Source: Leucobacter sp. UCMA 4100 (GTDB lineage Bacteria > Actinomycetota > Actinomycetes > Actinomycetales > Microbacteriaceae). Taken from it: DNA of 64,000 bases. The position numbers were made by a program, and so were the translations under genes. Below are positions 57,888 through 58,943 of this stretch, one piece after another (within the stretch, counting starts at the first letter, position 1; each line of letters opens with the position of its first letter). The stretch spans positions 1,534,514 through 1,598,513 of the forward strand of contig NZ_JAFEUS010000002.1 of the NCBI RefSeq assembly GCF_027853335.1, read 5' to 3'. The notes under the pieces were generated by a model. The model worked only from the letters and a program-made list of their open reading frames with translations. It searched no databases and was not told where the DNA came from.

Positions 57888-58943
57888 ATGACCGAACCCA
57901 GCCCCGCCCACGACCCCGCCGCGCACCTTGACCCCGCGCGCCCGCTCACCGAGATCTCGGTGACGCCGCCCTCGTACCGGCACGACCCCGCCGCGCGCCT
58001 GCGGCCCATCAACTGGAACCGTGTTGGCGACGACAAAGACCTCGAGGTGTGGAACCGCCTCACCGCCAACTTCTGGCTGCCCGAAAAGGTGCCGCTCTCG
58101 AACGACCTGCCGGCGTGGCAGCAGCTCACCCCCGAAGAGCGCACCCTCACGATGCGCGTGTTCACGGGGCTCACGATGCTCGACACCGTGCAGGCGACCG
58201 TCGGCGAGATCTGCCAGATCCAGGATGCCCGCACCGAGCACGAGGAGGCCGTCTACACAAACATCGCCTTCATGCAGGCCGTGCATGCCCGCTCGTACTC
58301 GTCGGTGTTCTCGACGCTCACGAGCACGCCCGAGATCGACGACGCCTACCGCTGGGCCGTCGCGAATGACCTCCTGCAGGAGCGCTCGAAGAAGGTGCTC
58401 GCGCACTATTACGGTGATGATCCGCTGAAGCGCAAGGTGTCGTCGACGCTGCTCTCGTCGCTGCTGCTCTACGCCGGGTTCTACCTGCCGCTGCACTTCT
58501 CGGTGCACGCGACGCTCACGAATACGGCCGATATGATCCGCCTCATTCTGCGCGACAAGGCCGTGCACGGCTACTACTCGGGGTACAAGTACCAGCGCGG
58601 GCTTGAGGCCGTGAGCCCCGCCGAGCGCGAGCGCATGCGTGAGTTCACCTACGAGCTGCTCGAGGAACTCTACGAGCTCGAACTCCAGTACTCGGGCGAG
58701 CTGTACGAGCCGCTCGGGCTCATGGACGACGTTGCCGTGTTCGTGCGCTACAACGCGAACAAGGCGCTCATGAATCTCGGGTACCCGGCGCGCTTCAGCC
58801 CCGAAGAGACCGAGGTGAACCCCGAGATTCTCGCCGCCCTCGCCCCCGGCGCCGACGAGAACCACGACTTCTTCTCGGGCTCGGGCTCGTCGTACATCAT
58901 CGGCAAGGCCGAAGACACGAGCGACGACGACTGGGATTTCTAA
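57888..58943 (+). CDS. nrdF: Ribonucleotide reductase radical subunit, metal-free class Ie (QSK) type
   Basis: 351 residues, 40-45 more than usual at the N-terminus plus an acidic end (DTSDDDWDF). Aligned with Corynebacterium ammoniagenes NrdF at a constant offset of 22: D77 is D99 (retained), E108 is Q130 ([10 protein letters not shown]), H111 is H133, radical Y115 is Y137, E168 is S190 ([10 protein letters not shown]), E202 is K224 ([10 protein letters not shown]) and H205 is H227. Three metal-binding glutamates are thus replaced by Gln, Ser and Lys. This is the QSK signature of class Ie subunits, which hold no metal and use a DOPA radical formed from the tyrosine with help of NrdI. SD GAAAGAAG. 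No second nrdF is in the window. Confidence 0.93.

Follow-up and report, generated by a model that had tools for sequence, protein, structure and literature searches.

A class Ie (QSK) ribonucleotide reductase operon of Leucobacter with a linked candidate NrdI reductase gene and an MntR-like regulator gene nearby

Genes for metal-free (QSK) ribonucleotide reductase in Actinomycetota recurrently have a particular flavin reductase gene as their neighbor. A reductase gene of this subfamily lies within 1.5 kb of nrdF at 17 of 34 QSK loci and at none of 49 conventional nrdF loci, and a gene for an MntR-like metalloregulator occurs within 8 kb at 13 of the 34 QSK loci and at none of the 49. We encountered this arrangement in a 64,000-nucleotide stretch of DNA (the window; G000:C2:1534514-1598513) from a Leucobacter genome of 2.84 Mb. 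Class Ie-QSK reductases have already been published (PMC11846895), and the window protein belongs to that known class; the new part is the genomic context, with its linked reductase and putative metal control, and not the NrdF protein. The best reading of the sequence data is a horizontally spread manganese-sparing substitute accompanied by a candidate NrdI reductase. As an overall explanation we consider it quite probable that the operon is functional, serves as a manganese-sparing substitute under the control of the MntR-like protein, and is assisted by a reductase that serves NrdI.

The window nrdF gene (57888-58943, plus strand) begins with ATG and encodes 351 amino acids. Its alignment with the Corynebacterium ammoniagenes class Ib protein R2F (1kgn) runs from 38/16 to 351/329 (window/1kgn), and because it has no gaps, the offset of 22 on which the initial annotation relied is correct. 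The seven reference residues are D99, Q130, H133, Y137, S190, K224, and H227: Q130, S190, and K224 replace three metal-binding glutamates, that is, three of the four carboxylate ligand positions, and the ligands D99, H133, and H227 are retained together with the tyrosine Y137, as had been read initially. Class Ib NrdF proteins (1kgn and the conventional protein of this genome, L005) share the fold, the NrdI and NrdE partners, and the H, D, and Y residues with the window protein but have E at the three positions. The closest PDB relatives are 8rag and 8rah (E 2.5e-159), which are the Gardnerella vaginalis R2eQSK protein with Q143, S203, and K237 (PMC11846895). When we aligned the window protein with this biochemically proven class Ie subunit, its best PDB match, identity was 68% over 329 compared residues. 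In a phylogenetic tree of 67 QSK and 24 conventional rows (the 24 highest-scoring of 50; L117 and L118, the same loci as L012 and L013, were excluded), a single branch with support of 100/100 splits the QSK from the conventional rows, and the window NrdF groups with the QSK rows, which include three Gardnerella species. Residues, structural relatives, and tree agree with the class Ie assignment first proposed for this gene, and identification of the window NrdF as class Ie (QSK) by sequence is well supported.

A published census contains 275 QSK sequences from 266 genomes, with gene orders that include nrdIEF (106) and nrdIF (104) (PMC11846895). The Gardnerella class Ie-QSK system (8RAG/8RAH) shares with the window the QSK residues, the kept residues, the N-terminal extension, and the nrdI-nrdE-nrdF order (PMC11846895), whereas neither the downstream flavin reductase nor the nearby MntR-like gene of the window was seen at three Gardnerella loci, and the window's genome additionally contains a conventional class Ib enzyme. 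The class Ie-VPK proteins of Mesoplasma, Streptococcus pyogenes, and Aerococcus have likewise lost three ligand glutamates and use a DOPA- and NrdI-based mechanism, but they have VPK rather than QSK, the order nrdFIE, and a mostly Bacillota distribution (PMC11846895).

The partners of the window nrdF are complete, as originally annotated. The flavodoxin-like activator gene nrdI (55122-55613, plus strand; TIGR00333, 156.2 bits, cut-off 74.65) overlaps nrdE by ATGA, and the intact class Ib-type catalytic subunit gene nrdE (55610-57829, plus strand; TIGR04170, 1160.6 bits, cut-off 750) encodes a protein that keeps the catalytic-subunit motifs and a C-terminal CVSC. The genome has three nrdF genes, namely the window gene, a second QSK gene (C2:1452288-1453325) in its own nrdIEF operon, and one conventional gene. 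The second QSK NrdF is 92% identical to the window protein (94% over aligned residues).

On the same strand as nrdF and 249 bp downstream of it is the gene for the candidate NrdI reductase (59193-59777, plus strand), a 194-residue NAD(P)H:FMN reductase of the QSK-linked subfamily, which scores 98.7 bits against PF03358 (cut-off 24). The initial annotation makes no mention of this gene. Its predicted model (mean pLDDT 75.9) is matched best by FerB (E 7e-12) and ChrR in Foldseek, with FerB, ChrR, and ArsH as the nearest folds. Fold and PF03358 domain are those of the FerB/ChrR NAD(P)H:acceptor oxidoreductases (3u7r, 3svl), but the window reductase is 29-30% identical to them, is linked to QSK operons, and has PE-N-N where 3u7r and 1rtt have PE-Y-N, a motif that we take to be a flavin contact. 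Across 41 aligned members of the subfamily the stretches ENN, SHSVG, LALSYF, and QPE are invariant. The same reductase gene follows the second QSK operon at a distance of 48 bp, and the two copies are the only reductase matches in the genome at E ≤ 0.001. A perfect 21-bp inverted repeat with a 37-nt loop (59034-59112), which may be a terminator or an RNA hairpin, lies between nrdF and the reductase gene in the window; because the 249-bp gap holds this perfect hairpin, co-transcription of the two genes there is unsure. The inverted repeat is also found in Leucobacter chinensis, and among the fetched loci its 16-base core otherwise occurs only in copies of those two loci. A long open reading frame at 59566-63999 runs off the window; judged by eye, its translation resembles a repeat-domain protein that is secreted or exposed on the surface.

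The locus set for the linkage counts comprised 80 nrdF loci together with the three of this genome, namely the window, L004 (the second QSK copy), and L005. Duplicates of this genome (L001-L003, L006-L008) were left out before counting, and L034 and L035, each with a QSK and a conventional nrdF, were tallied as QSK. The set includes near copies, such as L012, which is nearly identical to the window sequence, and many Corynebacterium loci. Extending the distance to 8 kb leaves the QSK count at 17 of 34 and adds a single conventional locus (1 of 49; L076), where the protein is 39% identical and encoded 4.4 kb away. The reductase gene is upstream of nrdF in Actinotignum (L033, L039) and downstream at the other 15 linked loci. 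Linkage recurs in Actinomyces, Actinotignum, Corynebacterium, Brevibacterium, Brachybacterium, and several Microbacteriaceae, and on the NrdF tree it needs at least 10 changes among the 67 QSK rows, 35 of which are linked.

Co-occurrence across genomes was assessed with a QSK codon pattern that misses none of the 33 known QSK loci besides the window and hits none of the 48 fetched conventional loci. Among 398 Microbacteriaceae genomes, 13 have QSK, 11 have the reductase subfamily (67-100% identity; the 47% identical match in G359 was excluded), and nine have both, adjacent in all nine; every Microbacteriaceae pattern match was verified as DQHYSKH. The reductase is found without QSK in G201 and G246, as a standalone gene, and QSK without the reductase in 4 of the 13 genomes (G014, G024, G150, G376). 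The 121 Corynebacterium genomes contain the pattern in 55, the reductase in 41, and both in 39; 30 of the 41 reductase genes lie within 1.5 kb downstream of a QSK nrdF on the same strand, one (G775) is standalone, and 16 of the 55 QSK genomes have no reductase. When 30 Corynebacterium reductase loci were fetched, a QSK nrdF stood beside 24, a conventional nrdF beside none, and no nrdF was in reach at six, some of them contig ends; all 20 fetched pattern loci read DQHYSKH. These genomes are assigned to Corynebacterium because L155 is 100% identical to the named locus L021 and L149 99.9% identical to L026. Fisher's exact P is 6e-14 for Microbacteriaceae and 2e-16 for Corynebacterium, values that both ignore phylogeny.

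The association is not universal. A class-level sample of 394 genomes contained two with the reductase and three with QSK, overlapping only in the window's own genome. Direct searches of 19 QSK genomes recovered a reductase of at least 60% identity in six; at E 1e-10 none was detected in six Bifidobacterium and Gardnerella genomes, in two of four Streptomyces genomes, or in the genomes of L028 and L030; reductase relatives in L. chromiireducens and the remaining two Streptomyces reach only 35-38% identity. Because many QSK genomes do without it, the reductase is not essential for QSK function; it is an accessory to QSK systems and not a requirement. An earlier description of a reductase or metal-control linkage to QSK was not found in the literature searched, a coverage that mostly excludes subscription papers, and the main text of PMC11846895 does not mention a flavin or FMN reductase, a transporter, or a repressor.

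That the window reductase acts on NrdI, as linkage and co-occurrence suggest, is in our estimate a proposition just short of even. A serious competitor, itself somewhat below even, is that the protein is a general quinone- or chromate-type enzyme that does not act on NrdI and instead protects the cell, recycles over-oxidized DOPA-quinone, or is simply a passenger of the island. FerB, ChrR, and ArsH, its nearest folds, are broad acceptor reductases, and the standalone copies in G201, G246, and G775 fit such an enzyme, as do the many QSK systems that lack it. A general enzyme accounts less readily for linkage that recurs across genera and is absent within 1.5 kb of every conventional nrdF, or for the invariance of ENN, SHSVG, and LALSYF in the aligned members.

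In L168, L170, and G876, all Corynebacterium with the gene away from the QSK nrdF, the reductase contains one in-frame stop codon (TAG, TAG, and TAA, respectively). L029, where the tblastn match to nrdI starts only at residue 109, and L131, where nrdF and the reductase are present in part only, are likely decayed QSK modules.

The second element of the context is putative metal control. Upstream of the operon, beyond a PEP carboxykinase gene that is read from the opposite strand, the window has a gene for a DtxR-family metalloregulator (52216-52959, plus strand; later ATG at 52222) with PF01325, PF02742, and FeoA domains above cut-offs. The top PDB match of the protein is 5zr4 (E 9.3e-66), presumably M. 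tuberculosis MntR, followed by 8pvt, SloR, 6o5c, and ScaR, with DtxR and IdeR weaker. Since it scores 155.6 bits (E 1.5e-45) against the NCBIfam MntR model NF047407, whose cut-off is 350, we call it MntR-like; its match to an actinobacterial DtxR model is weaker still (E 4e-24) and also below cut-off. Crystal structures of M. tuberculosis MntR are among the references listed in PMC11416365. Eight of the 34 QSK loci and none of the 49 conventional ones encode a manganese/zinc-type substrate-binding protein (SBP) within 8 kb of nrdF. Among NCBIfam models, the SBP encoded at the second QSK operon scores best with manganese-type lipoproteins, none above cut-off. The Brachybacterium locus L130 combines these genes in a compact module, with the MntR-like gene, permease, ATPase, and SBP followed by divergent nrdI-nrdF(QSK)-reductase.

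A predicted sigma-70-type promoter precedes nrdIEF (TTGACG-17-CATACT, 54864-54892, plus strand); it is the only promoter-like site in 54700-59300, and with 0.5 (sd 0.7) expected from shuffled sequence it is not above chance. Just past its predicted -10 element lies the palindromic box TTCGGTGCAACGTA (54897-54910), a candidate metalloregulator operator, and another palindromic box, TTCGCCGAGGCGAA (52183-52196), lies upstream of the MntR-like gene. The pattern TWCGN6CGWA occurs upstream of nrdI in 14 of 33 QSK and 1 of 48 conventional regions (the upstream regions of L013 and L087 were too short to count), but the QSK count is not independent, because the pattern was derived from the same QSK regions. 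Among promoters that played no part in its derivation, with L117 and L118 again omitted, it precedes 2 of 18 MntR-like genes and 2 of 11 SBP genes, one of the latter being counted twice (L004, L010). A common box before all MntR-like and SBP genes was considered and dropped. Because the box is mostly absent there, the pairing of regulator and box stays a hypothesis, and neither of the two MntR sites that PMC11416365 gives for M. tuberculosis fits the box.

Regulator, transporter, and box together make manganese control of the window operon reasonably likely, and lend support to the manganese part of the initial suggestion that the strain can make deoxyribonucleotides under severe manganese or iron limitation. 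Control mainly by iron or by NrdR and the dNTP state is in our view unlikely, although it has some evidence in its favor. DtxR-family members can sense iron, and the regulator belongs to that family; in addition, ACAACATATAGT (54992-55003, plus strand) upstream of nrdI and ACAACATGTAGT before the second QSK operon resemble NrdR boxes, judged by what we take to be the NrdR consensus, and the palindromic box is found before so few MntR-like genes. Against this, the regulator fits the MntR model over the actinobacterial DtxR model, both below cut-offs, its closest solved relative is 5zr4, and the SBP of the second operon leans toward the manganese type.

Further features were seen near these loci. 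L148 has a reductase gene with no nrdF within 1.5 kb, an MntR-like gene upstream, and boxes at -158 and -135, which suggests that the reductase itself can share the same control. A small protein of about 95-125 amino acids with the motif W-[LI]-E-x-I-x-x-F is encoded near 10 of 34 QSK and 0 of 49 conventional loci, either between nrdF and the reductase gene or before the SBP gene (for example, L004 10070-10441, L019 10911-11255, and L014 11019-11309); no member that was scanned matched a Pfam or NCBIfam model.

Within the window there is indeed no conventional nrdF, as first stated, but this does not extend to the genome. The recommended search for a second metal-binding nrdF or an nrdJ returned a conventional nrdF with residues DEHYEEH (L005; G000:C2:1755084-1756028), with nrdE alongside (class Ib nrdEF, C2:1752912-1756028), in addition to the second QSK operon. 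One further nrdI is located apart from the conventional nrdEF, at C2:2624201. No class II nrdJ scored above cut-off in a profile search of the genome, where the sub-cut-off matches were the three NrdE genes only. Because the genome has the conventional nrdF and the second QSK operon, the strain is not reliant on the window enzyme alone.

A conventional nrdEF in the same genome would also permit the QSK NrdF to be a decaying or regulatory, non-catalytic paralog. We regard this as very improbable: its partners are intact, an active homolog has been published (PMC11846895), and both QSK nrdF copies look to be under purifying selection, since dN between them is 0.042 and dS 0.99 (dN/dS about 0.04; 0.13 for nrdE). 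The QSK residues are not a sequencing error, because the second copy and the Leucobacter chinensis NrdF (L012; 99% identity) carry the identical seven residues; together with dN/dS this also led us to reject a pseudogene. Biochemistry of the Gardnerella homolog bears directly on the metal site. In solution, that protein has manganese and iron at trace level only; its DOPA formation requires NrdI, and its activity in vitro requires both DOPA and reduced NrdI (PMC11846895). A usable mononuclear or other metal site, for which the retained D99, H133, and H227 might speak, is most improbable given that trace metal content and homolog crystals in which the two metal positions are filled by the ammonium group of the lysine and by a water molecule (PMC11846895).

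Taken with these observations, the window nrdI-nrdE-nrdF genes would encode a functional class Ie (QSK) reductase with a radical subunit that works without metal, in which DOPA would form from Y137 in a NrdI-dependent reaction. The operon, one of two QSK operons beside a retained conventional class Ib enzyme, would most likely be a manganese-sparing substitute. With manganese plentiful, the MntR-like repressor would sit on the nrdI promoter palindrome and keep the operon off; with manganese scarce, the operon would be switched on and metal-free dNTP synthesis would take over. The downstream reductase would most likely re-reduce the FMN of NrdI with NAD(P)H, and re-reduced NrdI could then continue to supply the oxidant for DOPA and its radical. 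The same role as NrdI reductase has been proposed for the NADPH-driven Bacillus cereus FNR2, which differs in being a TrxR-like protein with NADPH and FAD domains, whereas the window reductase has a FerB/ChrR-like flavodoxin fold; for FNR2 acting on NrdI, kcat/KM is 1.6 per µM per min (PMC8564101).

Several lines of evidence point to mobility. The second QSK operon lies near genes for a DUF2637 protein, a Prim-Pol, an N6/N4 methylase, a ParB-like protein, and an M23 peptidase, and we infer that it sits on a mobile-looking island composed like an integrated conjugative element. Neither an integrase nor a relaxase was identified around it, and no tRNA gene that could act as an attachment site was found in L132, L004, or L133. 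L004 and the G056 locus are 89% identical over 7.6 kb, the Prim-Pol region included. Two loci whose genomes have different genus codes, L108 and L119, match at 99.9% over 9.5 kb, and L114 is 99.9% identical to L108; the shared piece of about 9 kb comprises the QSK operon and transporter genes. This identity suggests very recent transfer or contamination: contamination is possible because L108 and L119 are both on short contigs, and the match to L114, a single-contig genome, counts against it. Searches with tblastn returned 85 plasmid records (E 1e-100) and 134 phage records (E 1e-60), counted regardless of ligand residues, none above 80% identity. As far as their accessible text goes, four cheese-rind papers (PMC5526665, PMC5719810, PMC6579920, PMC12096840) describe metal-transporter transfer or an ICE at a class Ib nrdF, and not a QSK-reductase module.

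More broadly, and tentatively, the class Ie QSK enzymes found across many Actinomycetota may form a mobile manganese-independence module with an MntR-type switch, often a manganese importer, and a dedicated FMN reductase that powers NrdI or maintains DOPA. If so, this would be, to our knowledge, the first case in which a metal-free ribonucleotide reductase has a reductase partner linked to it genetically. The linkage suggests that independence from manganese in DNA synthesis can pass as a unit from one genus to another. Within the proposed mechanism, the most useful hypothesis is that the FMN reductase re-reduces NrdI, and the linkage provides a named candidate enzyme for that step in bacteria without a Bacillus-type FNR2, for which a continued search for NrdI redox partners has been urged (PMC8564101). 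Authors of the Gardnerella study had no protocol to replenish reduced NrdI constantly, a possible limit of their assay (PMC11846895). The linkage also supplies a candidate metal switch for when the metal-free enzyme is used in the cell, conditions described as not understood (PMC8463856).

A different type of control is suggested at other QSK loci. A cobalamin riboswitch (RF00174, 84-95 bits) precedes QSK nrdIEF in four Streptomyces and one Acidimicrobiia metagenome-assembled genome (L018 6664-6893, L020 1061-1282, L022 6979-7206, L023 6962-7193, and L030 5334-5584), and in the window no Rfam element reached the gathering threshold in 48000-64000. The riboswitch-preceded class Ie operons apparently place a metal-free ribonucleotide reductase under the control of vitamin B12.
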